Shown here: positions 5,201 through 26,848 of the stretch, one piece after another
How positions within the stretch are numbered: position 1 is the first letter of the stretch
Layout: the number at the start of each line of letters is the position of its first letter
Virus record (IMG/VR): IMGVR_UViG_3300045135_001070
Span: 1 to 29,729 of that record
Strand: one strand, 5' to 3'
DNA: 29,729 nt
Origin: a virus
Position numbers and translations under genes: made by a program
Notes under the pieces: model-generated
What the model was told of the DNA's origin: nothing
The model's database searches: none
The model's input: the letters and a program-made list of their open reading frames with translations, nothing else

Positions 5201-6124
5201 GAGGAAGCACGCAAGTTTGGCTCTGCTTCCCAGATCAAAGACGCGCAGAAGGCTTTGGACGATGCCCTTCTGGCGCAGCAGCGTGCCGACCTTCAGAAGC
5301 AGGCAGAGGAACAGCGCAAGCAGAAGGAAGATGCCCGCGAACAGGCGCTCTCAGATCTTGAGGACGCGCAGGAAGCGGAACTCAAGGCAAGCCGTGAGCA
5401 TCACGCTGGTCTGATTGCTGCTGAGCGTGAGCGCATTGAGATCGCTCGTGAGGCTTTGTCTGAGTCGCAGGCTGCTGAGGTGGCCAGCACTCAGGCTCAC
5501 TACAACGCTCTTGCCGCTCAGAAGCAGGCGCAGATTGACGCAGCGTTGCAGAGGCAGCGCGATGCCGACGCGCAAGAGATGGCCATGCTGCAACACCAGC
5601 AGGAGCAGGAGAAGGCCGCTCTTGACAGGCGCTTGAACAAGATGGGGCAGCACTTTGACCGTGCGGCAGACATTGGCGTAAAGGGAACAAGGAAGGCAGT
5701 GAACCAACTCAACTGGTTCAGGAATCAGTTTGAGCGTTCTGGCCACATCTTGATTGGATCGTTTGCACGGGGAATGTCAAAGCAGTCTCCTGCAATCGCC
5801 AAGGCTGCGCGTCAGATCTCTTCCATCTTGCGTGACTACCTCAAGTTGAACAGCCCTGCTGACAAGGGGCCGCTGTCCACGCTTGACCACTGGTTCGATG
5901 CGCTTGGCCCGACGCTGATGAGCGGCGCAGATTTCACTGAGGTTGAGCGCGGGCTGAACGGCATCTCTGCCGGGGGCGGAAACAGGGCAAGGTCTGGCAG
6001 CACGGTTACAATCAATCTGAACGTAAGCGATCAGACGTTTGCTGGCATGAGTCGTGATCAGGCAGACAGGGTTGCGCGGGAGATCCAAGCAGCGATTGAC
6101 CGTCAGGTTCGCTTCACCATTTAG
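2285..6124 (+). CDS. tape measure protein, 1279 aa
   Basis: The largest gene in the window, starting with GTG overlapping the chaperone stop. Residues about 1-120 hold the N-terminal pattern of TP901-type tape measures (ITAVVTANTAGFMRGMAQVD, later FETSMAKIQGLVGVAGK). Residues 100-330 contain the segment SANEAAEALFYITSAG and GKLQSEELAGSMGRVLP. Hydrophobic, glycine/alanine-rich stretches around residues 355-470 look like membrane-insertion segments. A GGTVRGPGGVDKIPAMLTAGE motif lies around residue 750, followed by long glutamine/alanine/glutamate-rich coiled coils to about residue 1130. By the usual length rule, 1279 residues suggest a tail near 190 nm. It sets tail length and is ejected with the DNA. 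Confidence 0.95.
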   Translation: MEVSRITAVVTANTAGFMRGMAQVDAATKRTAAQMNGMTTAVSRASTRMTSIGSVLTKRLSLPMLAIGGASVAMAASFETSMAKIQGLVGVAGKDVEKLAADAQRIGPAYGKSANEAAEALFYITSAGIDASEAASVLEASAKASAVGLGDTATVADLATSAMNAYGSSVLPAAGATDVMVKAVKLGKLQSEELAGSMGRVLPVASAMGVSFDQVGAAFAALSRTGTNAAEAATQIRGILASILRPTRMAQETLAEYGTSAGELRKQVREKGLLSVLQTLTKTFGDNEEAQARVFGNIRALSGVMDLMGKNTKTTQKIFDEMSDSTGALDDAFAVTEQTSAFKMAKAMESIKTALLGVGSAIAPVIGMIADGFTKIGSVLSALPGPVKQFTAALIGLAAVAGPTMLIMGKLGGAFTKVGAASAAAGAASAGAAGKVGLLARALPLMTNPLGLATIAVGAGIAALFAFRNELSHGERAIKAMSERQQAFKDAVSAVGAAFTASGQGVRSATEARNKQAEAAKKATEAEDAYLRAANNGRKANETQAQFLERLAKLRRDATEAQAAQTQAGAMSNAAVRNSVDALSKLEQAGKDELETARERAEQSRKQIQAHALYGKTEAQRTKLINEAEMAQADLAVVESRRVSRLKDLENNYKSNIKQVQQSNLSDSEKSATIDSLNRRLSRTRSRIKDLQGGKGKATVKVKEEVEQAEILAAKRLLEGLNNKVFKVTLKAMKQGFSFGGFAQGFASGGTVRGPGGVDKIPAMLTAGEAVLTKKQQAMVNSGMTIEDAFRATGAIGFAKGGTTDKKEAAKKRRERVSKAGRGLIDAMRDQLTDRITAKFSGGFTGKGATGFTLGLIEELRRKQEQNLKNIEASFDMAGLQTTMQNAMNALSKTHRTAMREFDKTNEASLQVFQTNAENAIEAINEKFEGQRKVIQETYDALTPAEEALKSLNEQAEATNLASGIADAQKALEEARKFGSASQIKDAQKALDDALLAQQRADLQKQAEEQRKQKEDAREQALSDLEDAQEAELKASREHHAGLIAAERERIEIAREALSESQAAEVASTQAHYNALAAQKQAQIDAALQRQRDADAQEMAMLQHQQEQEKAALDRRLNKMGQHFDRAADIGVKGTRKAVNQLNWFRNQFERSGHILIGSFARGMSKQSPAIAKAARQISSILRDYLKLNSPADKGPLSTLDHWFDALGPTLMSGADFTEVERGLNGISAGGGNRARSGSTVTINLNVSDQTFAGMSRDQADRVAREIQAAIDRQVRFTI

Positions 6125-7029: not shown

Positions 7030-8061
7030 ATGAGTAGTATATCCGACACAAGCATCGTCGTTGCTTCTGGCGGTCTGGTGGAGTTGGGGTACAGCCAGTT
7101 CACTAGCAACGTCGCTATTACATCAACGACTGCTGGTTCCGGTGACACGGTTATTTCGCCGCTTACGGTTGTGTGCGACGGCAGCCCCATTGTTGTTGAG
7201 TTCTTTGCCCCGCAAGTGCGGCCCGGTACCAACTCAAACGAAGAAATGTCTATTTCTCTTTATGAGGACGGGTCAGAGGAAACGCGCCAGTGGGGTCGCT
7301 TCTACAATGGTGCTGGCGGGTTTGACAACAAGCCAGCGCATCTTGCCCGCCGACTTACGCCGTCAGCGGGAAGTCACACTTACAGCGTCAAGGCTTATGT
7401 CAACGCCGGATCGGGGTCTGTCGGGGGTGGCTCAGGTGGGACCAGCAGCGCCCCCGGCTTTCTCCGCGTTAGCAAGATCGTAGAGGCAACCCAATGGCCC
7501 GCTGTCACCACCGGCACGATCATCTGCACCAGCAGCACGCGGCCCGCGTCCCCGTTTGAGGGGCAGGTCATCTACGAGACTGACACCGGGCTATCGCTTA
7601 TCTACGACGGGAGTGCGTGGGTATCGCCGTCTGTGACGCACAAGCCGCCGAGTGTCAAGTTGGAGCGAACGACCGGGCAGGTCGTCTATGACGCAAGCGC
7701 GGCCATCATAGTCTGGGACAGCGAAGTGTGGGACACGGACGGGATGCACGACAATGCGACCAACCAAGATCGCATTACCATCAACACTCCGGGCATCTAC
7801 CTCGTGATTGGTGCGGTCAGGTACAACGCTGGCATCAGCGACGACAGTTCCGTGACTATCTGGCAGAACGGCAGCACCTTTATCGTCCGTGACGAAGGAG
7901 GCCCCGCCAACACGGCGGGAGGGCGCACCGTGTCAGCATTGGTGAACATGAACGCCAACGATTACCTGCACTTGCAGGTGTACCAGAACAACAGCGCGAA
8001 TACGTCGCGCACGACTACAAGCGGCACTTTCTTTTCGGCAGCGTGGATAGGGCAGGCGTAA
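7030..8061 (+). CDS. tail fibre / receptor-binding type protein with C1q-like head
   Basis: A 343-aa protein with AAGGTGG as SD. Residues 1-140 are a beta-sandwich-like domain (VVCDGSPIVVEFFAP, then SYSVKAYVNAG-type strands), followed by a glycine/serine hinge (GSGSVGGGSGGTSS). Around residues 160-196 it carries CTSSTRPASPFEGQVIYETD followed by YDGSAWV, a linker module repeated in three downstream fibre genes. The last 140 residues resemble a C1q/TNF-like trimeric head (ITINTPGIYLVIGAVRYNA, SALVNMNANDYLHLQVYQN). It is probably an appendage protein. Which copies bind host receptors is unknown. Confidence 0.68.
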   Translation: MSSISDTSIVVASGGLVELGYSQFTSNVAITSTTAGSGDTVISPLTVVCDGSPIVVEFFAPQVRPGTNSNEEMSISLYEDGSEETRQWGRFYNGAGGFDNKPAHLARRLTPSAGSHTYSVKAYVNAGSGSVGGGSGGTSSAPGFLRVSKIVEATQWPAVTTGTIICTSSTRPASPFEGQVIYETDTGLSLIYDGSAWVSPSVTHKPPSVKLERTTGQVVYDASAAIIVWDSEVWDTDGMHDNATNQDRITINTPGIYLVIGAVRYNAGISDDSSVTIWQNGSTFIVRDEGGPANTAGGRTVSALVNMNANDYLHLQVYQNNSANTSRTTTSGTFFSAAWIGQA

Positions 8062-16496: not shown

Positions 16497-16682
16497 ATGA
16501 AGTGCCGAGTGTGCCGACAGCCCGGCAGGAATCGTGATGGTCTGATTCTCTGTCGTGGCTGTCGGCAATCTCTTGAGCGATCAATCCGCAAGTGGAGGAT
16601 TGACCTTGAGCGTGACCTTGCCACGATGGAAGCGTTTGATGCTTACTGCTTCCAACGTGAGCAAGAAGTCAGTCCCGCATAG
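16497..16682 (+). CDS. 61-aa zinc-ribbon protein
   Basis: ATG lies 2 nt after the holin stop. C3-x2-C6 and C19-x2-C22 form a compact zinc ribbon (CRVCRQPGRNRDGLILCRGC), followed by a basic and amphipathic helix (RSIRKWRIDLERDLATMEAF). It probably binds one zinc ion. Function unknown. It ends the long rightward gene series, and its last 14 nt overlap the end of the convergent leftward gene. Confidence 0.62.
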   Translation: MKCRVCRQPGRNRDGLILCRGCRQSLERSIRKWRIDLERDLATMEAFDAYCFQREQEVSPA

Positions 16683-16914
16683 GACCCCACTCGTTCATGT
16701 GCAGCCGGGCTGATGTGCCGTCAGGCAGGTTGCACACCTCGTCCATCAGGTAGGAAGCGTCCTCAGTGTCCGCGACGACCCCTGCCCCCATCAGCCGCCC
16801 CATCGCTTCCACGATTTCGACGCGCTCAGCAGAAGTCAGGTGAGCAATGCCGGGGTAAGCCTTCAACTCGTACCAGTCGGCAGGCTCGCTGACAATGTAT
16901 GCGTTGACCTTCAT
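16669..16914 (-). CDS. 81-aa protein of unknown function
   Basis: The last gene of the leftward block, convergent with the zinc-ribbon gene. Its SD (GGGAGAG) lies directly after the stop of the 52-aa gene upstream. The product starts with a strand (MKVNAYIVSE), has a helix (TSAERVEIVEAMGRLMGAGV) and ends beta-rich (TSARLHMNEWGPMRD). No family is recognised. It is probably cotranscribed with the 52-aa gene from the promoter at 17115-17144. Confidence 0.6.
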   Translation of the reverse strand: MKVNAYIVSEPADWYELKAYPGIAHLTSAERVEIVEAMGRLMGAGVVADTEDASYLMDEVCNLPDGTSARLHMNEWGPMRD

Positions 16915-16925
16915 GTGTCTCTCCC

Positions 16926-17084
16926 TTACTTGACCTTGACCGTGCCGCCGTGGCGGTAGTGAATGGGCTGAACGGCAACCCGGTCCTTGACGATCCGGTG
17001 AGTCTTGATCCTGTCGTAGCGGACCCGGATCTCCTTGTGACCGACCTTCTTGGCGGTGATCCTGTATGCGGTGATGTCGGTCAT
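16926..17084 (-). CDS. 52-aa basic beta protein of unknown function
   Basis: ATG (complement of 17082-17084) follows AAGGAGA at 5-nt spacing. The product is rich in basic residues and beta-branched residues (MTDITAYRITAKKVGHKEIR, VRYDRIKTHRIVKDRV) and ends VQPIHYRHGGTVKVK. The frame is fully open between a strong promoter with SD and the SD of the next gene, which supports it despite its length. No homology recognised. Confidence 0.6.
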   Translation of the reverse strand: MTDITAYRITAKKVGHKEIRVRYDRIKTHRIVKDRVAVQPIHYRHGGTVKVK

Positions 17085-17096
17085 TGCTTCTCCTTG

Positions 17097-17137
17097 TCTC
17101 TCCCTTACAACTGGTATCTAACCAGAGAAGGGAGAGA
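17097..17137. repeat. 10-bp inverted repeat spanning a leftward promoter
   Basis: TCTCTCCCTT (17097-17106) and AAGGGAGAGA (17128-17137) are perfect inverted arms. A nested palindrome CTGGT-ATCTA-ACCAG (17111-17125) covers the -10 box. One arm lies in the promoter spacer and the other in the SD region of the transcript. Possible operator sites. Confidence 0.5.
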
Positions 17138-17144
17138 ATGTCAA
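17115..17144 (-). promoter_or_regulatory. leftward sigma70-like promoter
   Basis: On the minus strand: TTGACA (17139-17144), 18-nt spacer, TAGATA (17115-17120), then GTTGTAAG, the downstream element shared with other promoters here. It drives the 52-aa and 81-aa genes. Confidence 0.68.
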
Positions 17145-17149
17145 GGGGA

Positions 17150-17335
17150 TCAGATCATTTCTTTTGGGGACTTGATCATCAGGACGATCTTGCCCGCCAT
17201 CCAGTTTGCCTCACACACTGCCTTCCGCAGCATCTCTTCCGTAGCGCCGTACTCTTCGTAGTCGTGATCGCCGCTGGCGTCCGGTGAATACATGGCGCTT
17301 GCGGCCCAACCGTCAATCCAAACTGAGATGATCAT
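17150..17335 (-). CDS. 61-aa protein of unknown function
   Basis: Start ATG preceded by GGAGG, which overlaps the stop of the upstream 53-aa gene (TAGGAGG), so the two are coupled. The product has a hydrophobic, aromatic start (MIISVWIDGWAASAMYSPDA) then an acidic stretch (GDHDYEEYGATEEML) and ends GKIVLMIKSPKEMI. No domain recognised. It is too polar overall to be a membrane protein. Confidence 0.58.
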   Translation of the reverse strand: MIISVWIDGWAASAMYSPDASGDHDYEEYGATEEMLRKAVCEANWMAGKIVLMIKSPKEMI

Positions 17336-17346
17336 TGCTGCCCCTC

Positions 17347-17508
17347 CTAGATGGTCAGCAGAAGCGTGGCCTCTGCGTAGTCGGCCCGGATCTGGTCAGC
17401 GAGAGCGATGTCCCCGTCCATCTCAGCGTCAAGGGCAGCGATGGCAACAGCCGCGTCGTACTCCTTGGTCCCGATCCAGTAAGTGTCTGTGATGTCAATG
17501 GCGGGCAT
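17347..17508 (-). CDS. 53-aa acidic protein of unknown function
   Basis: ATG preceded by a GAGAGAGAGA purine tract in the leader of a strong promoter. The product is acidic and helical: MPAIDITDTYWIGTKEYDAA then VAIAALDAEMDGDIALADQI, ending RADYAEATLLLTI. Its TAG lies in the SD of the next gene. The short length, clean SD and dedicated promoter support it. No function can be assigned. Confidence 0.58.
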   Translation of the reverse strand: MPAIDITDTYWIGTKEYDAAVAIAALDAEMDGDIALADQIRADYAEATLLLTI

Positions 17509-17540
17509 TTGGTGTCTCTCTCTCTCTTGCTTACAACTTC

Positions 17541-17569
17541 ATTCAACAGGATCGTAAACAGAAATGCAA
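17541..17569 (-). promoter_or_regulatory. leftward promoter, TTGCAT type
   Basis: On the minus strand: TTGCAT (17564-17569), 17-nt spacer, TTGAAT (17541-17546), then GTTGTAAGCAA. About 34 of 42 bases match the rightward promoter at 26617-26645, including the GATCCTGTT spacer segment. It drives the 53-aa/61-aa pair. Confidence 0.68.
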
Positions 17570-17613
17570 GGGGTATGGAGAGATCTTTACATTTGCCGCG
17601 CCGGGCTGATCAC

Positions 17614-17619
17614 TAAGAT
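17614..17619 (+). promoter_or_regulatory. -10 box for a leaderless forward gene
   Basis: TAAGAT ends 6 nt before the ATG at 17626, and there is no SD. The spacing matches actinobacterial leaderless transcripts. TTGCCG at 17593-17598 is a weak -35 with a short 15-nt spacer. Confidence 0.42.
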
Positions 17620-17625
17620 GCAGCA

Positions 17626-17826
17626 ATGCCATACGGTTGGCGACCAGAGGGCACCGCAACTTTTCAGTCCGGGGAGGCTGCGCTTGCGTCGTTTGTTCAG
17701 ACGCAAAGCGAGAGGCAGTTGTGCGCGTGGTGTTGGGGGCAGGGCTACCTCGTGCAACGCTCCCTGTTGGGATGGCTGCCGGTAGCCTGCCCCATCTGCG
17801 TCAACCACGCAGACGACGTGAACTAA
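17626..17826 (+). CDS. 66-aa zinc-ribbon protein, lone forward gene
   Basis: The only forward gene within the leftward block. C33-A-W-C36-W-G-Q-G, followed 19 residues later by C55-P-I-C58, is a DnaJ-like C-x2-C-x-G-x-G...C-x2-C zinc ribbon with a glutamine/serine-rich N-terminal half. A metal site this well formed is unlikely by chance, and the opposite strand in 17600-17826 has no better candidate. Expression would be leaderless (see the TAAGAT box 6 nt upstream). It is convergent with the leftward gene ending at 17828, with a 1-nt gap. Confidence 0.6.
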   Translation: MPYGWRPEGTATFQSGEAALASFVQTQSERQLCAWCWGQGYLVQRSLLGWLPVACPICVNHADDVN

Positions 17827-17827
17827 G

Positions 17828-18019
17828 TCACTTCCTGCGGGTTCGCTTGGTCTTGGCAGGCGGGGGAGGTGGCCACGCCACAACCCGGTCCACGGTCGTC
17901 CACGTCTGACGCTCCTGACCCTTGCGCTGCAAGGCAACGCGCTTGTGCCCGATGTGAGTCAAGTGCCCGAACACACAGCCAGTGTCCGTTCGGGCCATGA
18001 CCAGATCTCCAACCTTCAC
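17828..18019 (-). CDS. 63-aa SH3/KOW-like basic protein
   Basis: Its ATG overlaps the stop of the upstream gene by 4 nt (ATGA). It begins MKVGDLVMARTDTGCVFGHL, then THIGHKRVALQRKG and WTTVDRVVAW: a small beta-barrel pattern (V-G-D-x-V, turns, V-x-x-V) as in SH3-like and KOW nucleic-acid or protein-binding domains. The C-terminus is a proline run followed by KTKRTRRK, a basic tail likely to touch nucleic acid. Function unknown. Confidence 0.6.
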   Translation of the reverse strand: MKVGDLVMARTDTGCVFGHLTHIGHKRVALQRKGQERQTWTTVDRVVAWPPPPPAKTKRTRRK

Positions 18020-18294
18020 CCCATCACCTCCACGGGGTAGTCAACGTATCCGGTGGGGTATCCCCAGTCACCGTCGTAGTAGCCGTCCTGCTCTTGCGGA
18101 TCCTCGTCGTACTGGTTCTGCATCTCAGTCCACTCCTGAGCCGCGTCGTCCGTGGCGTCCCGCTCGTCCTGCTGCTGCTTGACGAGATCCGCGTTGTCCT
18201 GCTCCGGGTCAGACATCTGCATCATCTCCATCATCATCTGGTACTCGTTGTAGTCAATGGCGTCGTCTGCGTCGTAAAGGGCTGCGATCCACAT
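18016..18294 (-). CDS. 92-aa acidic, methionine/glutamine-rich protein
   Basis: ATG at 18294 is chosen because AAGGAGAGAG precedes it; an upstream in-frame TTG (18330) lies inside the promoter repeat. The product begins MWIAALYDADDAIDYNEYQM, has a methionine-rich helix (MMEMMQMSDPEQDN), a long Q/D/E-rich segment and a tyrosine/glycine C-terminus (GYYDGDWGYPTGYVDYPV). It is strongly acidic and probably partly disordered. Small acidic phage proteins can act as DNA mimics or inhibitors of host enzymes, but no evidence here selects that role. Confidence 0.58.
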   Translation of the reverse strand: MWIAALYDADDAIDYNEYQMMMEMMQMSDPEQDNADLVKQQQDERDATDDAAQEWTEMQNQYDEDPQEQDGYYDGDWGYPTGYVDYPVEVMG

Positions 18295-18325
18295 GACTGT
18301 CTCTCTCCTTGCGTGGTGAACTGCT

Positions 18326-18362
18326 GACAACAGGGATACAAGCAGATCGTACCCCTGTTGTC
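18326..18362. repeat. perfect 10-bp inverted repeat around a leftward promoter
   Basis: GACAACAGGG (18326-18335) and CCCTGTTGTC (18353-18362), 17 nt apart. One arm overlaps the -35 and the other ends in the downstream TTGTCAGCA element. The repeat begins 10 nt past the stop of the 55-aa gene, so it could also form an RNA hairpin at the end of that transcript. Confidence 0.62.
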
Positions 18363-18364
18363 AA
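18336..18364 (-). promoter_or_regulatory. leftward promoter inside an inverted repeat
   Basis: On the minus strand: TTGACA (18359-18364), 17-nt spacer, TTGTAT (18336-18341), then CCCTGTTGTCAGCA. It drives the 92-aa and 63-aa genes. Confidence 0.62.
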
Positions 18365-18371
18365 GTGGTGA

Positions 18372-18539
18372 CTACGACAGGATGGGGTTAGCCTCAGCCG
18401 CCCCGACCACAGCCAGCCGCAGGGCCTCAGCCTTGGTCCCGGCAGCGCCGCCGTAGTGGTCGCCAGCGCACTCAATGACGACCCACCAAATGCCGTCCTG
18501 CTTGACGCTGTTGACGATGGTGTAGTAAGCGGGGTTCAT
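18372..18539 (-). CDS. 55-aa protein of unknown function
   Basis: ATG (complement of 18537-18539) follows AAGGAG at 6-nt spacing. The sequence MNPAYYTIVNSVKQDGIWWV then VIECAGDHYGGAAGTKAEAL is a strand-turn-strand followed by a helix (EALRLAVVGAAEANP), a compact alpha/beta fold reminiscent of double-stranded-RNA-binding or DUF-type mini-domains, without a firm match. It has its own promoter (18586-18614) and ends just before the next promoter repeat. Confidence 0.58.
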   Translation of the reverse strand: MNPAYYTIVNSVKQDGIWWVVIECAGDHYGGAAGTKAEALRLAVVGAAEANPILS

Positions 18540-18585
18540 GGGGAACTCCTTGGTAGGAAGAGTGTAGTGATCCCTTACAACACAT

Positions 18586-18614
18586 ACTCAAGCAGATCTC
18601 TTTGGAGATGTCAA
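18586..18614 (-). promoter_or_regulatory. leftward promoter within the end of the zinc-finger gene
   Basis: On the minus strand: CCCTTGACAT with -35 TTGACA (18609-18614), 17-nt spacer, TTGAGT (18586-18591), then GTTGTAAGG. The -35 lies inside the 3' end of the upstream coding region. The spacer has a small hairpin (ATCTC...GAGAT). Confidence 0.58.
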
Positions 18615-19139
18615 GGGTGTGTTGGTGTAGCACCGCTGGCAACGCCACGGCTGACGAACCTTGTCCCGCACAATGTCGTCCAGTCTGCTTGTCCCTGTGC
18701 GGAAGCAGGTGGCGCACTTGCACTCCACGCGCCGAGTGCCGTCCACCACAAGCAAACGAATGGGGTTGTGTCCCTTGCTTCTGATTATCTGCATCAAGCA
18801 ATCATCGCACCGCTTGACTCCCCCGGCTCTTGGGACAAACTGCTCACCACACTCATGGCAAGGCTGAGGTTTCTTGGGCCGGTGCGTCTTGCCAATGCGG
18901 TCCTTGCCAGCACAGGCATTGCACTTCTTTCCATTGCCCTTCCGGTAGTTGCCGGGCTTGACAACCCGGTGCTGCTTGCAGCCGGGGCACTCAACCATCA
19001 GATGCTTGTTCCACTGCTTCCCGTTGTGTTCCCGCACAATCCCGACGGGAACCATGCCGTGAGCCTTGGCATCTTCGATGAAGCAATCATCGCACCATGA
19101 CTTCCCGCGCTTGGTGGCTCTGCACTCACACGATTCCAT
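18588..19139 (-). CDS. multi-zinc-ribbon protein, 183 aa
   Basis: The protein contains four cysteine clusters, each a potential zinc site: C4/C6/C16/C19, C51-x2-C54 with C73-x2-C76, C94-x2-C97 with C111-x2-C114, and C142-x2-C145 with C167-x2-C170. Between them are basic loops (KPGNYRKGNGKKCNAC, RIGKTHRPKKPQPCHECG). The first and third clusters share the W/R-C-D-D-C pattern, suggesting internal duplication. The regular spacing argues that this minus-strand frame, not the long overlapping plus-strand frame, is the gene. Function unknown; RNA or DNA binding is plausible. Confidence 0.68.
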   Translation of the reverse strand: MESCECRATKRGKSWCDDCFIEDAKAHGMVPVGIVREHNGKQWNKHLMVECPGCKQHRVVKPGNYRKGNGKKCNACAGKDRIGKTHRPKKPQPCHECGEQFVPRAGGVKRCDDCLMQIIRSKGHNPIRLLVVDGTRRVECKCATCFRTGTSRLDDIVRDKVRQPWRCQRCYTNTPLTSPKRSA

Positions 19140-19266
19140 TGATCGCTCTCACTCCTACGATTGCCAACATGATTGCGGTGACGATCAGGAACAGCGTGGG
19201 CGGGGTCCACGGGGGAACCACCGCCACTGCTGCCATGACCAGCGTAAGCCAAGTTGTCGTGGTCAC
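19126..19266 (-). CDS. 46-aa membrane protein with two TM segments
   Basis: GTG overlaps the stop of the upstream gene as GTGA, and the frame runs 14 nt into the zinc-finger gene, so three genes are coupled. The sequence MTTTTWLTLVMAAVAVVPPW then TPPTLFLIVTAIMLAIVGV gives two hydrophobic segments separated by a proline turn, followed by RAINGIV. It lacks an obvious catalytic or binding motif. In the leftward block a membrane-acting early function is possible. Confidence 0.55.
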   Translation of the reverse strand: MTTTTWLTLVMAAVAVVPPWTPPTLFLIVTAIMLAIVGVRAINGIV

Positions 19267-19967
19267 GCTGCCACCTCCTGCGCTGCCTGCTGCGCCTGCG
19301 CCTCAACGTGCTTGCGGTCCCACCGCCACTTGGCCATTGACTTGGTTGCCGACTCCATCTCCTTGATGCTGTCGTGCAGGTCGTACCAGCCGTCGTCCTG
19401 CGGCATCATCTCGTCGCCGTTAGCCAGAGCCGCAAGGAACTTCTTGGCGGCAGCCTCCATCTGGTCAACCATCTCCTGCGTCTTGGCGACAGTCTGCTCA
19501 CCGGCAGCGATGCGGTCGTTGGCCTGCTGGTTCTTCTCATTCGACCGGAACTCAGCAACGGCATCCTTGACGTGCTTGACCGGGATAACGTCAACGATCT
19601 TCCACAGGTCAACCTCGTTCCACTGGCCAGCCATCTTCTCAGCGAAGATCTTGTGGTAAGGCGCAGCCCTGTAGCCGTACCACATCCCGTGGCCGTCCGT
19701 GGTGCGCGAGGGCCAGATGTGCTGACCGCGCGTGACCATCATGTTGCCCCGCTTGGGCTGAATGGTGGCGTACCCCTTGTCAATCAAGCCATTGATTGCC
19801 TTGTCCAACTGGCCCTTGGGAACGCTCTTGCCGCGCTCACGGCTGTAGATGCTGATGTCGTTCCACACGCTTGAGGTGCGGGAGATGTCGTATTTGACAC
19901 CTGCCGCGAACAGCAGCACCGCACGCTCGTTGTTGGTCAGCGGTTGCAGATAATCCTGAATGTCCAT
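19263..19967 (-). CDS. 234-aa protein with N-terminal winged-helix-like domain
   Basis: Residues 10-75 read as a winged helix: NNERAVLLFAAGV, then DISIYSRERGKSVPKGQLDK, AINGLIDKGYATIQ, with a possible wing at KRGNMMVTRG. The middle is aromatic and basic (GQHIWPSRTTDGHGMWYGYR). From about residue 130 it is a long coiled coil (NEKNQQANDRIAAGEQTVAK, MVDQMEAAAKKFLAAL). This fits a dimeric DNA-binding or replication-initiation-type protein, but no family is certain. Its promoter is at 20008-20036. Confidence 0.62.
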   Translation of the reverse strand: MDIQDYLQPLTNNERAVLLFAAGVKYDISRTSSVWNDISIYSRERGKSVPKGQLDKAINGLIDKGYATIQPKRGNMMVTRGQHIWPSRTTDGHGMWYGYRAAPYHKIFAEKMAGQWNEVDLWKIVDVIPVKHVKDAVAEFRSNEKNQQANDRIAAGEQTVAKTQEMVDQMEAAAKKFLAALANGDEMMPQDDGWYDLHDSIKEMESATKSMAKWRWDRKHVEAQAQQAAQEVAA

Positions 19968-20007
19968 TTGATGTCTCCCTCAGTGAGTGGTGATTGGTTA
20001 CAACTGC

Positions 20008-20036
20008 ATTGAACATGATTTACAACAAGATGTCAA
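20008..20036 (-). promoter_or_regulatory. leftward promoter
   Basis: On the minus strand: CCCCTTGACAT with -35 TTGACA (20031-20036), 17-nt spacer, TTCAAT (20008-20013), then AGTTGTAACC. A second copy of GTTGTAA lies in the spacer (complement of 20020-20026), giving a direct repeat that may be an operator. Confidence 0.65.
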
Positions 20037-20046
20037 GGGGATCCGC

Positions 20047-20091
20047 AAAAAAGTTGGGGCCGGATCTCAGTCAGGAAAAAGATCCGGCCCC
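20047..20091 (-). terminator. intrinsic terminator after the DUF932 gene
   Basis: Perfect 11-bp stem GGGGCCGGATC/GATCCGGCCCC (20056-20066 and 20081-20091) with a 14-nt loop. On the minus strand it is followed by AAC and six T (complement of 20047-20052). This is the clearest intrinsic terminator in the window. Confidence 0.8.
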
Positions 20092-20097
20092 GCGCCT

Positions 20098-20125
20098 GCC
20101 TGCCACTAGCCCCTAGTGGTCAGGC
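20098..20125 (-). terminator. second hairpin just after the DUF932 stop
   Basis: GCCTG+CCACTAG (20098-20109) pairs with CTAGTGG (20113-20119) and CAGGC (20121-20125), with a CCC loop and one bulged base. It precedes the main terminator in the transcript and may stabilise the 3' end or aid termination. Confidence 0.45.
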
Positions 20126-20127
20126 GG

Positions 20128-21102
20128 CTAGACCATCGCAACCTCCTTGGCGATGGTCAGGCTGCGCTCCTTGACGGCAGCGGTGCCGAACAGGATGCGG
20201 TCTGTGCGAACGTCTGCGTTCTTGGCAGAGCGGTAGTGGTCGTCCCAGTCAGCGACCGCCTGAACGAATCCCCATGCCGTGTCCTTGACGTTGGCGAGGT
20301 CGTCAGCCTTGAGGCAATCCATGATGGCCTCGCGGCGGTTGAGCGTCATGGTCTTAGCGCGACCGTCCTCAACCTCGTCCACGCGCTTGCCGTCAGGCAT
20401 CGGCAGCAGATCGTTCACCATCTTGTTCATCTGCCACCCGCTGACCTTGGTGTTGATCAGCGTGTTGCCAATCTGCTCAAGGTCGTCGAAGTACCGGCTG
20501 GCAATGCCAAGCATCTGGCGGGCGTCCATAAACTTGCCCGTCACGTTCTTGGTGTGGCGTGCCTTCCACGAACGCTTTGCGCTCTTCATGCTGTACGTCA
20601 GCGCGTTCCAGCAAGCCAGACGGATCGGAGTGATCCACGCGCTCACCGCCATTGTCCCGTCGTGGGAGTTGGCGAACATGATGTAGGGCTGGATTTTCTC
20701 GTCAGGGTCGCCCCCGATGAAGATGTCCCGGTCCATCTCCGCGCCAAGCCAGATGCGCTTGCCGCCGTTGAGCGAACCGCCTGTGGTGAACCGGAGGTCC
20801 GGGCCACCAAGGATGTCGTCCACGAATCCGAACGCCTGCGTGTTCTGGACAACCTCGTAGGTGTCGCTCATCACGCTCAGCACTTTGCCCGTGTCGCTAC
20901 GGACCAAAGCCTTCTTGCCGTCAATGGCAACCTGCTGGCCGTTGATGTCGGCGCTGATGTCAGCCTTCTCAACGGTCCAATCCAGACCGGCCAGAGCGAT
21001 AGCCTCAGCCGCGCTCTTGGGCTGGTCAACGATGGTCGTGGCAGCGCCGTGCCACGGCTGACGCTCACTGCTGTAGAACTGCTTGTTGTCGTAGTTGCTC
21101 AC
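20128..21102 (-). CDS. DUF932 (TIGR03299-type) phage/plasmid protein
   Basis: A 324-aa protein starting with GTG after GAGAGAGACAGCA. It matches the DUF932 layout: WHGAATTIVDQPKSAAEAIA, LDWTVEKADI, then TGKVLSVMSDTYEVVQN, QAFGFVDDILG, KRIWLGAEMD, IMFANSHDGTMAVSAWITPI and RLACWNALTYS. The family is common on plasmids and phages. Its biochemical role is not established to my knowledge. The F-x-N-S-H-D-G-x-x-x-x-x-x-x-T-P-I-R-x-x-C-x-N core is intact. It has its own promoter and a strong terminator, so it is a separate, probably highly expressed unit in the leftward block. Confidence 0.85.
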   Translation of the reverse strand: MSNYDNKQFYSSERQPWHGAATTIVDQPKSAAEAIALAGLDWTVEKADISADINGQQVAIDGKKALVRSDTGKVLSVMSDTYEVVQNTQAFGFVDDILGGPDLRFTTGGSLNGGKRIWLGAEMDRDIFIGGDPDEKIQPYIMFANSHDGTMAVSAWITPIRLACWNALTYSMKSAKRSWKARHTKNVTGKFMDARQMLGIASRYFDDLEQIGNTLINTKVSGWQMNKMVNDLLPMPDGKRVDEVEDGRAKTMTLNRREAIMDCLKADDLANVKDTAWGFVQAVADWDDHYRSAKNADVRTDRILFGTAAVKERSLTIAKEVAMV

Positions 21103-21136
21103 TGCTGTCTCTCTCTCTTGCTTGGTTGTGGTGACT

Positions 21137-21164
21137 ACTTTACTTGGAACTGATTAGAAGTCAA
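21137..21164 (-). promoter_or_regulatory. probable leftward promoter for the DUF932 gene
   Basis: On the minus strand: TTGACT (21159-21164), 16-nt spacer, TAAAGT (21137-21142). It overlaps the last codons of the upstream 75-aa gene. It lacks the TTGTAAGC element, although ACCAAGCAAGAG follows. Confidence 0.48.
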
Positions 21165-21381
21165 TCCATCCGGCAGGACGATTGACGCTCTTTGCGGGAA
21201 CTTCCGGCTGGTCGAAAATCGTGTCCTCGTAAGGGACCAGACCGGCTGCGAAGCACGCCTGCTCGTACTTCCACTCAGCCTCAGCGTTGCTGTCGTCCAT
21301 GCAAGCCATCTCGTACTCGTACTCTCCACCGTAGAAGGAGATAGTGTTGCCGGTGTCCGGGTTGATTGCCTGCTTATACAT
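21154..21381 (-). CDS. 75-aa protein with TGN...GGEY motif
   Basis: ATG at 21381 is chosen (GAGAGAG precedes it); a longer in-frame start would lie inside the promoter. The N-terminal half, YKQAINPDTGNTISFYGGEY then EYEMACMDDSNAEAEWKYEQ, resembles the 99-aa protein at 26865-27164 (TGNWVPYQGGGEYGMDCQLD...QAEWDAM). Shared order: TGN, G-G-x-Y, M-x-C-x-x-D, A-E-W. The C-terminus (FDQPEVPAKSVNRPAGWIDF) is unrelated. Function unknown; the pair looks like distant paralogues. Confidence 0.6.
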   Translation of the reverse strand: MYKQAINPDTGNTISFYGGEYEYEMACMDDSNAEAEWKYEQACFAAGLVPYEDTIFDQPEVPAKSVNRPAGWIDF

Positions 21382-21419
21382 TGCTCTCTCGTTCCCTCGT
21401 GGTGATTGCTTACAACAGG

Positions 21420-21448
21420 ATTGAACCACAGGGGCTAACGAATGTCAA
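21420..21448 (-). promoter_or_regulatory. leftward promoter
   Basis: On the minus strand: TTGACA (21443-21448), 17-nt spacer, TTCAAT (21420-21425), then CTGTTGTAAGCAA. It drives the 75-aa gene. Confidence 0.65.
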
Positions 21449-21457
21449 CCCCTGTGG
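21426..21457. repeat. perfect 9-bp inverted repeat flanking the -35 box
   Basis: CCACAGGGG (21426-21434) and CCCCTGTGG (21449-21457) with a 14-nt gap that holds the -35. It lies 7 nt beyond the stop of the regulator gene, so it may be an operator, a transcript-end hairpin, or both. Confidence 0.55.
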
Positions 21458-21464
21458 CCAATCG

Positions 21465-21911
21465 CTACGAGATTTTGGGGAACGGCTTGTCGCTCTTGGC
21501 AAAATCCCGGCCAGCCTCAGTGAGAGTCCACAGCCCCGCGAAGTTGTCGCCAAGACGGGCAACAAACGATGCCTTCCGCAGACGGGTCAGCGTGCTGCTC
21601 ACCGTCGTTGCGTCAAGACCAGTTGAAGCAATGATCTCCTGTCGCGGCTTGGGTCCATCGTTCAAGTCGTCAAGGATGCGGCGCACGATGTTGGTCTGGC
21701 GCGGCTTGCGACGGCTGCGCTGCTCCTGCTCGTACTGGATGCGTGCCTGCTTGCGCTCAGCACGCGCCTCTGCCAACTGGCGCTTGGCCTGCTCAAGATT
21801 CTCCTGCGCCTCAACAACTCGCTGCTGCCAGATGATGAACAGCCGCTCAGTCTCCTGCTTGTGGGCAAGTGCCCCGCTCTCCACCATCTCGCTCAGAATG
21901 TCCGTACTCAT
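21465..21911 (-). CDS. coiled-coil winged-helix regulator, 148 aa
   Basis: ATG at 21911 follows GAGAGG in the promoter leader; the open frame upstream of it is not used. Residues 1-75 form a charged coiled coil (FIIWQQRVVEAQENLEQAKR, QLAEARAERKQARIQYEQEQ). Residues 80-140 are a winged helix: NIVRRILDDLNDGPKPRQEI, IASTGLDATTVSSTLTRLRK, ASFVARLGDNFAGLWTLTEAG. The TTVSSTLTRLRK helix is the likely recognition helix. It is transcribed from one of two back-to-back promoters, so it is a natural candidate for regulating the divergent block. Confidence 0.75.
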   Translation of the reverse strand: MSTDILSEMVESGALAHKQETERLFIIWQQRVVEAQENLEQAKRQLAEARAERKQARIQYEQEQRSRRKPRQTNIVRRILDDLNDGPKPRQEIIASTGLDATTVSSTLTRLRKASFVARLGDNFAGLWTLTEAGRDFAKSDKPFPKIS

Positions 21912-21948
21912 TGAGTCCTCTCTAGTCTCTCTACCAAACAGTTGCAGC

Positions 21949-21977
21949 AACCTACATCGTTGCAAGCAAGATGTCAA
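21949..21977 (-). promoter_or_regulatory. leftward promoter of the regulator gene
   Basis: On the minus strand: TTGACA (21972-21977), 17-nt spacer, TAGGTT (21949-21954). Its -35 is separated by one base from the -35 of the divergent rightward promoter. Confidence 0.62.
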
Positions 21978-21978
21978 C

Positions 21979-22008
21979 TTGACATCGGCGCTGTTCTTTG
22001 ATTGAATC
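21979..22008 (+). promoter_or_regulatory. rightward promoter of the replication/recombination block
   Basis: TTGACA (21979-21984), 18-nt spacer, TTGAAT (22003-22008). With the leftward -35 it forms the 13-bp palindrome TGTCAACTTGACA (21972-21984). Confidence 0.6.
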
Positions 22009-22041
22009 TTGGCGACATAACCACTACCCCAAGGGAGAGAG

Positions 22042-22686
22042 ATGGGTAGCGAAATGACCGTAAGTGGCGGGCCGCTGGCCACGCCATCTGAGATCGTCAG
22101 CAACGCCAGCGAAGTGGCAACGCTGCTGACAACGATCCTGCGAGAGCAGAACCTTGTTGTCAACATTCAAGGCAGTGAGCATGTTCTGGTTGAGGGGTGG
22201 ACGCTCCTTGCCGGGATGATGGGGCACAGCGTTGGCACGACCAACACCCGTCCCGTTGAGGTTGACGGCAAGCCGGGCTTTATCGCTCACGCTGAGGTGT
22301 ACGACCAGAGTGGCAACGTGGTCGGTTCGGCAGACGGCATCTGCACGCGCGGTGAGCGGGCGTGGAGTAAGCGCGACGACTACGCGCTGTCGGGCATGGC
22401 GCAGACGCGGGCCATCAGCCGGGCGTGCCGTCAGCGGTTTGGGTTCATCGTGCGGCTGGCTGGCTACAACCCAACACCTGCGGAAGAGATGGGGTACGCA
22501 GTCGTTGAGGACGAATACAGCGTTGACGCGCTTGTTCAGTTGACCAGAGAGAGAGGCATACCAGTGGAAAAGGTGAAGGAAGTCATTGCGGGTCAGGGCG
22601 TGGAAAAGGCAGCGGATCTCACCAAGGATCAGTTGCAGGAAGTTATTGACCTACTCAAACAGGAGTTCAGCGCAACGATGGAGTAG
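22042..22686 (+). CDS. single-strand annealing (ERF/RecT-like) protein candidate
   Basis: A 214-aa protein with GGGAGAGAG as SD. Residues 95-150 (DGICTRGERAWSKRDDYALS, then GMAQTRAISRACRQRFGFIV, RLAGYNPTPAEEM) match a conserved block I know from actinophage recombination proteins, where M-A-Q-T-R-A-x-S-R-A is followed by the L-A-G-Y-x-x-T-P-A-E-E-M tail. Those proteins are usually placed with ERF or Rad52-like annealing proteins. The C-terminus ends in helices (EVIAGQGVEKAADLTKDQLQ). It is first in the rightward block, directly before a RusA-like resolvase, which supports a recombination role. Confidence 0.62.
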   Translation: MGSEMTVSGGPLATPSEIVSNASEVATLLTTILREQNLVVNIQGSEHVLVEGWTLLAGMMGHSVGTTNTRPVEVDGKPGFIAHAEVYDQSGNVVGSADGICTRGERAWSKRDDYALSGMAQTRAISRACRQRFGFIVRLAGYNPTPAEEMGYAVVEDEYSVDALVQLTRERGIPVEKVKEVIAGQGVEKAADLTKDQLQEVIDLLKQEFSATME

Positions 22687-25520: not shown

Positions 25521-25800
25521 TTGGAAAGCAGCACGCGCCAAGGTGGAGGCAGACAACGAGTGCCGGGTGTGCGGCCAGTGGGGAGTTGAGGCGGCGCACA
25601 CAATCGGGCGCAAGCACGATCCGGCCAACGGCAAGGTGCGACCAGTTGACGTGGTGGGTTTGTGCCCGGAGCATCACCGGCTGTACGATGCGCGGAAGTT
25701 CAACCTGCTTCCCTATCTAACCTACGAAGAGCAAGCGGCGGCGGTGGAGCATGTTGGCATCGTCCGTGCGCTCAGGAGACTGACCAGTGGCCAAGAGTGA
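25510..25800 (+). CDS. HNH endonuclease, 96 aa
   Basis: GTG 25510 is chosen with AGGAG at 25498-25502; a longer in-frame region upstream overlaps the cysteine-rich gene and is unlikely. The protein has C18-x2-C21, A-A-H30-T and C52-P-E-H55-H56-R-L-Y, the HNH/His-Me layout with a structural zinc (CRVCGQWGVEAAHTIGR, VVGLCPEHHRLYDARKF). HNH proteins nick or cut DNA. Many act next to terminase, whereas this one is in the replication/recombination block. It could also be a homing remnant, though its operon coupling argues against that. Confidence 0.8.
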   Translation: MRRDWKAARAKVEADNECRVCGQWGVEAAHTIGRKHDPANGKVRPVDVVGLCPEHHRLYDARKFNLLPYLTYEEQAAAVEHVGIVRALRRLTSGQE

Positions 25801-26026
25801 TGAGAAGCCCGCGCTTGTAGTGAGTGCAGAGAGACTGCGCGATCTTCACCAGTCGGGCAAGGACAAAGAGATGTACGAGTCTGCGCTTGGTGTGTTCTAC
25901 GGGATCAGCGAGATCATGGTGAGGGCTGAGGACGAGAAGAACGACAGGCTTGTGACCTACGCTGCGCCCCAGATTGCTGACCTTGCAATCAGGCTTGGAT
26001 GGTTGGAGAGAGAAACGAACAAGTAG
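25787..26026 (+). CDS. 79-aa helical protein of unknown function
   Basis: GTG overlapping the HNH gene by 14 nt. It reads MAKSDEKPALVVSAERLRDL, HQSGKDKEMYESALGVFYGI and ends QIADLAIRLGWLERETNK: helical and mildly acidic. No family recognised. It is the last gene before the hairpin at 26025 and the gene-free RNA region. Confidence 0.58.
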   Translation: MAKSDEKPALVVSAERLRDLHQSGKDKEMYESALGVFYGISEIMVRAEDEKNDRLVTYAAPQIADLAIRLGWLERETNK

Positions 26027-26061
26027 TTTGTCGCTATTTGCGGGAATAACGCTGACAAACT
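26025..26061 (+). terminator. long hairpin closing the operon before the RNA gene
   Basis: AGTTTGTC (26025-26032) pairs with GACAAACT (26054-26061). Inside are 2 and 4 further pairs with a small bulge and a TGCGGG loop. It begins within the last codon's stop. No U-tract follows, but its position between the operon and the next promoter suggests a terminator or processing hairpin. Confidence 0.55.
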
Positions 26062-26074
26062 TCTCCCAAACCCC

Positions 26075-26102
26075 TTGCATTTCTGGTGAGATCAGGTAAC
26101 TT
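26075..26102 (+). promoter_or_regulatory. promoter of the gene-free RNA region
   Basis: CCCCTTGCATTTCTG with -35 TTGCAT (26075-26080), 16-nt spacer, TAACTT (26097-26102). The first 14 bases match the leftward promoter at 17541-17569. The predicted start is near 26108. Confidence 0.58.
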
Positions 26103-26600
26103 ACTTATTGCAGAGAGGGACCGGGGAGTTGGAACCGCAATCACTCTCAGCAGGGTCAAGGTGATGTTCACTTGTCATCCAGCCGGGGGCACACCACTCC
26201 CTTGACCTAGCAAGCAGCAGGATCGCTTGTAGGAAGGCTCTAGTAGCCAGTGTCCCTCAAACGGGGACGGGTTGGTTCCGGGACGCGCCCGTGATCAAAG
26301 TCAACCCAACGGCCAACGAGCCTCCGGGCTTTTTCTCCCTCCGGGGGCAGGCTCCTAAGATGCAAAGGCGGGCAGCGGCAGCGTAAGTCCCATAAGACCA
26401 CCGCTGAGCCAAGAACCGGAGACAGGGAAGAGGTAGCGCCGACTCCGTTGAGGGTCAGTCGTGAGTGCCTGTCACTGTTCGGCACATGCAACCGGACAAA
26501 CGTAAGCGCAACGAGCGGGTGGACTCAGCGGGGCGGCATAACTAATACGAAAGACAGAGCGGGTCGGGGTCCAACTCCCGGCCCGTTCGTATTTGTAAAG
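26103..26600 (+). ncRNA. candidate large structured RNA, about 500 nt
   Basis: No supported gene lies here. Many complementary segments do: TGC-A-GAGAG with CTCTC-A-GCA (26109-26152), GGTCAAG with CTTGACC (26154-26160/26201-26207), GCAAGC with GCTTGT (26210-26230), GTCCC with GGGAC (26252-26268), GGGTTG with CAACCC (26269-26274/26302-26307), GAGCCT with AGGCTC (26318-26323/26349-26354), CCGCTGAG with CTCAGCGG (26401-26408/26524-26531), GACAGG with CCTGTC (26421-26426/26468-26473), GTTCGG with CCGGAC (26477-26497), and a 3' hairpin combining 8-bp and 9-bp stems (26544-26593). It has its own promoter and is followed by another. Large ornate phage RNAs such as GOLLD and ROOL are known, but no match is claimed. 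The ends are approximate. Confidence 0.5.
26544..26593 (+). terminator. 3' hairpin of the RNA region
   Basis: AATACGAA (26544-26551) pairs with TTCGTATT (26586-26593). Above an 8-nt one-sided internal loop, CGGGTCGGG (26560-26568) pairs with CCCGGCCCG (26577-26585), with one G-U pair and an 8-nt loop. It may be the RNA's 3' domain or its terminator; the U-tract is weak. Confidence 0.5.
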
Positions 26601-26616
26601 ATGTCTCCCGTTGCCC

Positions 26617-26645
26617 TTGCATTTTTGTTTGTGATCCTGTTTACT
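26617..26645 (+). promoter_or_regulatory. rightward promoter, TTGCAT type
   Basis: CCCTTGCATTTTTG with -35 TTGCAT (26617-26622), 17-nt spacer, TTTACT (26640-26645), then GTGTAAGCAA. It is closely similar over 42 bases to the leftward promoter at 17541-17569. Confidence 0.66.
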
Positions 26646-26677
26646 GTGGGTGTAAGCAAATGAGGGGGACAGCAGAA

Positions 26678-26848
26678 ATGGGCAAGGCAGAAATGATCCG
26701 AGAGGCAGTCGCCGCCAAGAAGGCGTACCTGCTTCGGGAGCACGGTGCCGGTGGTCGTCTGCTGGACATCAAGCGAGTTGCCAACCAGCAGGACAACGAG
26801 ACTCGCGTTGCGATCTACAAGGCAATCAACACCACCACCAAGCCCTAA
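26678..26848 (+). CDS. 56-aa basic protein of unknown function
   Basis: ATG 26678 is chosen because AGGGGGA precedes it at 8-9 nt; the in-frame ATG at 26660 is too close to the transcription start and lacks an SD. The sequence MGKAEMIREAVAAKKAYLLR then EHGAGGRLLDIKRVANQQDN ends TRVAIYKAINTTTKP, with a basic helical first half. It is the first gene downstream of the strong promoter. Function unknown. Confidence 0.6.
   Translation: MGKAEMIREAVAAKKAYLLREHGAGGRLLDIKRVANQQDNETRVAIYKAINTTTKP

Follow-up and report, generated by a model that had tools for sequence, protein, structure and literature searches.

A candidate promoter-headed, non-coding transcription unit, approximately 485 nt long, in a phage of actinobacteria

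Introduction

Phage early leader or antiterminator RNAs of the put and nut types are rich in hairpins and lie directly behind an early promoter, before the early genes. The RNAs GOLLD and ROOL are often encoded near tRNA islands (PMC12286853), and phage-encoded sRNAs have been the subject of a recent review (PMC12197685). Here, we examined a 29,729-nt fragment of an uncultured actinobacteria phage (IMG/VR record IMGVR_UViG_3300045135_001070), referred to below as the window, in which a gene-free stretch follows one of three related putative promoters (P1, P2 and P3; Table 1).

Like GOLLD and ROOL, the candidate RNA, proposed here from sequence alone, lies in a phage genome, spans several hundred nucleotides and comprises long-range pairings, but it has no Rfam match at any threshold and no tRNA nearby, and its fold energy appears ordinary for its genome. 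With phage-encoded tmRNA it shares complementary 5' and 3' ends and a similar size range, though neither a tRNA-like end nor a recognised tag frame. Richness in hairpins and a location between promoter and early genes recall the put- and nut-type leaders, from which the stretch differs in being much longer and absent from the P2 and P3 transcripts. Intergenic, non-coding and with its own (predicted) promoter, it resembles phage-encoded sRNAs, most described ones being shorter. We propose that the stretch may be an autonomous (orphan) promoter-driven non-coding transcription unit of the phage, of about 485 nt, a reading to which we assign a probability slightly below one half (about 0.48).

Coding potential and putative promoters

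Codon usage, scored after training on genes of the phage itself, placed the longest run without coding signal in the six frames of the 29.7-kb window at approximately 25969-26725, around a gene-free gap of ~630 bases (26027-26659). ORFs within 26100-26600 scored from -0.22 to +0.05 per codon, compared with 0.26 for the neighbouring gene at 25787-26026 and 0.31 for that at 26660-26848, and had no match beyond chance in Pfam or PHROGs; neither did these databases reveal, in any frame, a trace of a former gene. The roughly 500 nt without a supported gene reported in the preliminary description is thus borne out, and a codon-biased, conserved ORF covering it was sought by coding score, Pfam and PHROGs and not found. 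That phages spare little DNA for unused stretches, as also argued there, is a prior and not evidence. The base composition of the stretch is close to that of the genome, and the first small gene behind P2 would encode 62 rather than 56 amino acids if it started at 26660. ARAGORN and Rfam detected no tRNA in the window.

The pattern CCCTTGCATTT[C/T]TG occurs at exactly three sites in the window, namely 26072 (P1), 26614 (P2) and minus-strand 17572 (P3), and allowing up to two mismatches revealed no other. Exact matches to a longer version of the promoter motif, of which 0.02 were expected, occurred twice, at P2 and P3. P2 and P3 display 80% identity over 66 bp (E 6e-11) and each lies shortly 5' of a small gene with a ribosome-binding-like sequence; this conservation and this placement argue that both are promoters. 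P1 lies 542 bp from P2 in the same direction and has only the upstream part in common with it (~24 nt at 79%); it contains CCCTTGCATTTCTG, common to P2 and P3, while its spacer is shorter than theirs by one base and its TAACTT is poor in a family whose -10 hexamers are weak. Since a strict sigma70 scan detected none of the three, their promoter activity is deduced from conservation and position and should be regarded as putative. Of the sigma70-like promoter of the phage's own family previously placed at the start of the stretch, the three-member family stands, whereas P1 belongs to it by its upstream part only and escapes the sigma70 scan. Transcription from P1 would start at ~26109-26112.

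Two promoter/operator regions of 66 bp that head divergent operons, 17527-17591 (minus strand) and 26594-26659 (plus strand), are nearly duplicates of each other. Both retain the boxes GTAAAGAT, TCTCC, TTGCATTT and GATCCTGTT, and they probably form one regulon with a common regulator.

Table 1. Predicted features of the stretch and of the related promoter regions in the window
Feature	Position	Strand	Details
P3	17541..17582	-	third family member, at 17569; heads leftward genes (17508 and lower)
Upstream hairpin	26025..26061	+	inverted repeat; -11.6 kcal/mol, 1/200 shuffles as good
P1	26062..26102	+	TCTCCC box; -35 TTGCAT 26075-26080; 16-nt spacer; candidate -10 TAACTT 26097-26102
Candidate non-coding transcript	26109..26598	+	~485-490 nt, ends inferred; bounded by P1 and 3' hairpin
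5' strand of 10-bp pairing	26124..26133	+	pairs with 26570-26579 (GGGAGTTGGA / TCCAACTCCC)
pgsA-like segment	26131..26158	+	27/28 identical to antisense of 5' coding part of pgsA
Predicted hairpin	26154..26207	+	8-bp base GGTCAAGG/CCTTGACC
UCCG-tetraloop hairpin, then UUUUU	26318..26335	+	-7.5 kcal/mol, 9/200 shuffles as good
Long-range 8-bp helix	26401..26531	+	CCGCTGAG (26401-26408) / CTCAGCGG (26524-26531)
Two-part 3' hairpin	26544..26595	+	AATACGAA/TTCGTATT and GC-rich upper stem
P2	26604..26645	+	TCTCCC box; -35 TTGCAT 26617-26622; candidate -10 TTTACT 26640-26645
First small gene behind P2	26678..26848	+	56 aa, ATG 26678, SD-like AGGGGG; score 0.31 per codon

Predicted folding

Folding of the whole 491 nt, one of the checks initially suggested, gave -198.8 kcal/mol (z -2.16) with only 2 of 100 shuffles as stable, but the contrast fades against the phage itself: 28 other plus-strand windows of 487 nt had a mean z of -0.86, and six of them an equal or lower z than the stretch. 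The fold of 160-nt windows within the stretch was ordinary in a local scan. In these predictions, the fold energy appears ordinary for the genome, as a whole and locally. Watson-Crick stems of at least 6 bp numbered 21, versus 24.9 in shuffles, and those of at least 7 bp 6, versus 6.0; at 8 bp and above a weak excess appeared (4 versus 1.5, p=0.07). The ten or more complementary pairs of 5-9 bp initially picked out by eye are thus at chance level and constitute no evidence.

Individual elements fared differently. The two-part 3' hairpin noticed at the outset is real and unusual (-29.5 kcal/mol, z -5.6, none of 200 shuffles as good) and is a probable 3' end or terminator; it is listed as terminator-like in a region whose count of such hairpins is no higher than in shuffles, and the tail that follows it (GTATTTGTAA) is a poor U tract. 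A group II domain V look-alike at this hairpin was rejected, having no Rfam support. The longest stem of the region is the 10-bp pairing, which brings the 5' end together with sequence in the loop and the upper stem of the 3' hairpin and lies within an imperfect 24-nt pairing retrieved by an inverted-repeat search; 5.5% of shuffles have a longest stem of at least 10 bp. As modelled, the 3' hairpin and this end-to-end pairing provide mild evidence of structure. The terminator-like hairpin described upstream also exists, between the stop of the upstream gene and P1; its U tract is poor, and it is a candidate terminator of the upstream operon. The UCCG-tetraloop hairpin is a weak candidate for an internal terminator, which would shorten the RNA to ~225 nt.

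The strongest local plus-strand fold of the window (z -5.8) lies elsewhere, at 19968-20127, where two genes of the minus strand (19263-19967 and 20128-21102) leave a gap; the minus strand also folds strongly there (z -4.0), and the element is probably a long palindromic hairpin.

Searches for RNA families and homologues

The Rfam 15 covariance models yielded no match at gathering score over the whole window, and a search of 26000-26700 with E up to 10 returned three chance matches only, below the cut-offs. GOLLD, ROOL and HEARO are excluded at Rfam thresholds, tmRNA and tRNA by the lack of a tRNA-like domain according to ARAGORN and Rfam, and a group I intron by the lack of an Rfam match and by the position of the stretch between genes rather than inside one. 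No leader or riboswitch family of Rfam matched either. The earlier view that nothing identifies a known class thus holds for all five models then named (GOLLD, ROOL, HEARO, tmRNA, group I intron). Antisense action on the phage's own genes was rejected as well: the stretch has a 16-nt perfect match to 7547-7562, but an equally long one is present in 12 of 60 other windows of 487 nt.

No homologue of the stretch was found by blastn among GenBank phages and plasmids, nor in IMG/VR by promoter pattern, exact RNA words or translated pieces of the stretch. True relatives in IMG/VR came from exonuclease scans only, and neither the more than 80 loci of exonuclease relatives nor the complete records of the closest among them carry the RNA. 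These nearest relatives, with 58-66% identity in the exonuclease and almost nothing else in common, are so distant that absence of the RNA there says little; the searched collections may also leave out very near records. Three sets of actinobacterial genomes (395 + 395 + 390, i.e. ~1,200) contained no homologue, pattern scans of genome contigs gave none either, one of them producing 88 chance loci on which nhmmer was negative, and Pontimonas phage phiPsal1 has long gaps without genes that resembled the stretch no more than shuffles did. The collection of homologues from virome contigs, recommended initially, therefore came back empty from IMG/VR, and with no homologue found nothing shows selection on the stretch.

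Protein similarities place the phage more broadly. Its tape measure protein is closest to that of Pontimonas phage phiPsal1 (42%), its calcineurin-like exonuclease to that of Actinomycetia phage DSL-LC01 (43%), and its tail and ParB-like proteins to those of Microcystis and Arthrobacter phages, while relatives of its DUF932 protein occur mostly in Mycobacterium, Streptomyces and Microbacterium phages. These sequence relationships point to a phage of actinobacteria, possibly of aquatic Microbacteriaceae and other actinobacteria. The DUF932 protein (20128-21102) and a winged-helix protein (21465-22166) belong to a minus-strand gene block (16669-22166) within an otherwise rightward genome.

A segment resembling pgsA

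The 28-nt pgsA-like segment first matched one of 395 actinobacterial genomes (E 8.4e-6 per genome), against a best E of 0.005 for the reversed query in the same genomes. The matched gene is pgsA (TIGR00560), at the codons for LTLLRVIAVP and antisense to the candidate RNA, and the sole mismatch is synonymous (V codon). With up to three mismatches, 6 of 148 family genomes matched, versus 0 for the backward control; according to sequence and genus listing all six belong to one tight genus and are therefore to be counted as a single event. Beyond the 28 nt the match does not continue, and no relative of the phage exonuclease was found in this genus. Most of the segment is base-paired in the predicted ensemble, and on the minus strand a GTG start lies nearby in frame (GTG AAC ATC ACC TTG ACC CTG CTG AGA...). 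Over the searches made, the chance of a match of this kind is ~0.3-1%; found post hoc, it is probably due to chance.

Interpretation

As an arrangement of predicted sequence elements, a promoter-headed, hairpin-ended non-coding unit is real. We infer the transcription, ends, timing and function of its RNA as follows. RNA polymerase would start at P1, a variant of the promoter heading the operons that run rightward (P2) and leftward (P3), and the ~485-nt RNA would end at or just after the 3' hairpin, directly before P2. Pairing between the 5' end of the RNA and that hairpin, at its loop and upper stem, could close the molecule or compete with hairpin formation. Made together with the P2 and P3 genes, the RNA might act in trans or control read-through into the P2 operon. 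An autonomous unit is favoured because the stretch is the longest non-coding run, is devoid of any protein family, and combines a three-copy promoter motif with a strong 3' hairpin and 10-bp 5'-3' complementarity; it is weakened because its folds are not outliers in the genome, no homologue is known from the searches, the -10 of P1 is poor, its spacer shorter and the sigma70 scan negative, and the tail has a poor U tract. The large phage RNA of the preliminary description thus persists as a non-coding, promoter-headed and hairpin-ended unit, but its fold energy does not set it apart within its genome. The unit may encode a large structured RNA; that this RNA represents a class so far undescribed in phages, characterised by closure between 5' end and 3' hairpin loop and by an early promoter family, and in its strongest form also by the 28-nt antisense to a host phospholipid gene (pgsA), appears improbable. 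If transcribed and conserved, the unit would add to the few large non-coding RNAs of phages, and do so in viruses of poorly studied environmental actinobacteria; the present merit of this single-sequence candidate is its clear transcription-unit anatomy.

The same elements could serve in cis. P1 and P2 would then drive one early operon in tandem, and the 500 nt would form a long 5' leader. Its hairpins at 26318-26335 and 26544-26595 would attenuate read-through or serve to load an antitermination complex, with no separate trans-acting RNA. This fits the motif and direction common to P1 and P2, 542 bp apart, the position of the hairpins 5' of the operon and the complementarity of the 5' end to the 3' hairpin (left arm and loop), which would allow pairing of the antiterminator kind. 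However, P2 alone is enough for the operon, as P3 is for the leftward genes, antitermination across 430 nt would be unusual, and no leader or riboswitch of Rfam matches, so that we regard a cis-acting control region as rather unlikely. We would say much the same of untranscribed or functionless DNA, whether a decayed gene, an insertion remnant or a spacer that keeps duplicated copies of the promoter/operator apart and might carry protein-binding sites or a replication origin. The lack of homologues, the ordinary folding energy, the shuffle-like number of complementary pairs and the genome-like base composition are what such DNA would display, but a former gene has left no trace in any frame, iteron-like repeats are missing, and a promoter and a terminal hairpin stand in order at opposite ends. 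A replication origin with iterons was rejected, as the stretch has no repeats.

Two further readings depend on the pgsA-like segment, and both strike us as very improbable. That the RNA might silence host pgsA (phosphatidylglycerophosphate synthase) by antisense pairing is suggested by the 27/28 match, its E value of 8.4e-6 against 0.005 for the reversed query, the synonymous mismatch and the 6 of 148 family genomes against none for the backward control. This is offset by the post hoc probability of ~0.3-1% for what amounts to one event in one genus, by the lack of extension, by the largely paired state of the segment in the predicted ensemble, and by a genus that harbours no relative of the phage exonuclease, whereas the phage's own relationships indicate aquatic Microbacteriaceae and other actinobacteria. 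Alternatively, the segment might be the core of an attP site, the 5' end of pgsA being repaired on integration by the phage-borne GTG. Such a site would fit the near-identity over 28 nt with a host gene that is conserved and the start codon lying close by, in frame, on the minus strand, but no integrase family was recognised among the window genes tested, arm-type repeats are absent, a reachable start codon is common by chance, and no lysogen was found.

Finally, Pontimonas phage phiPsal1 (MG835450.1) was found to contain an unannotated tmRNA-like stretch of 82 nt at 5569-5650, which ARAGORN missed and which the Rfam tmRNA model scores at 54.6 bits over model positions 1-374. It comprises both halves of the tRNA-like domain without the mRNA-like domain, and could be a tmRNA mimic or decoy.
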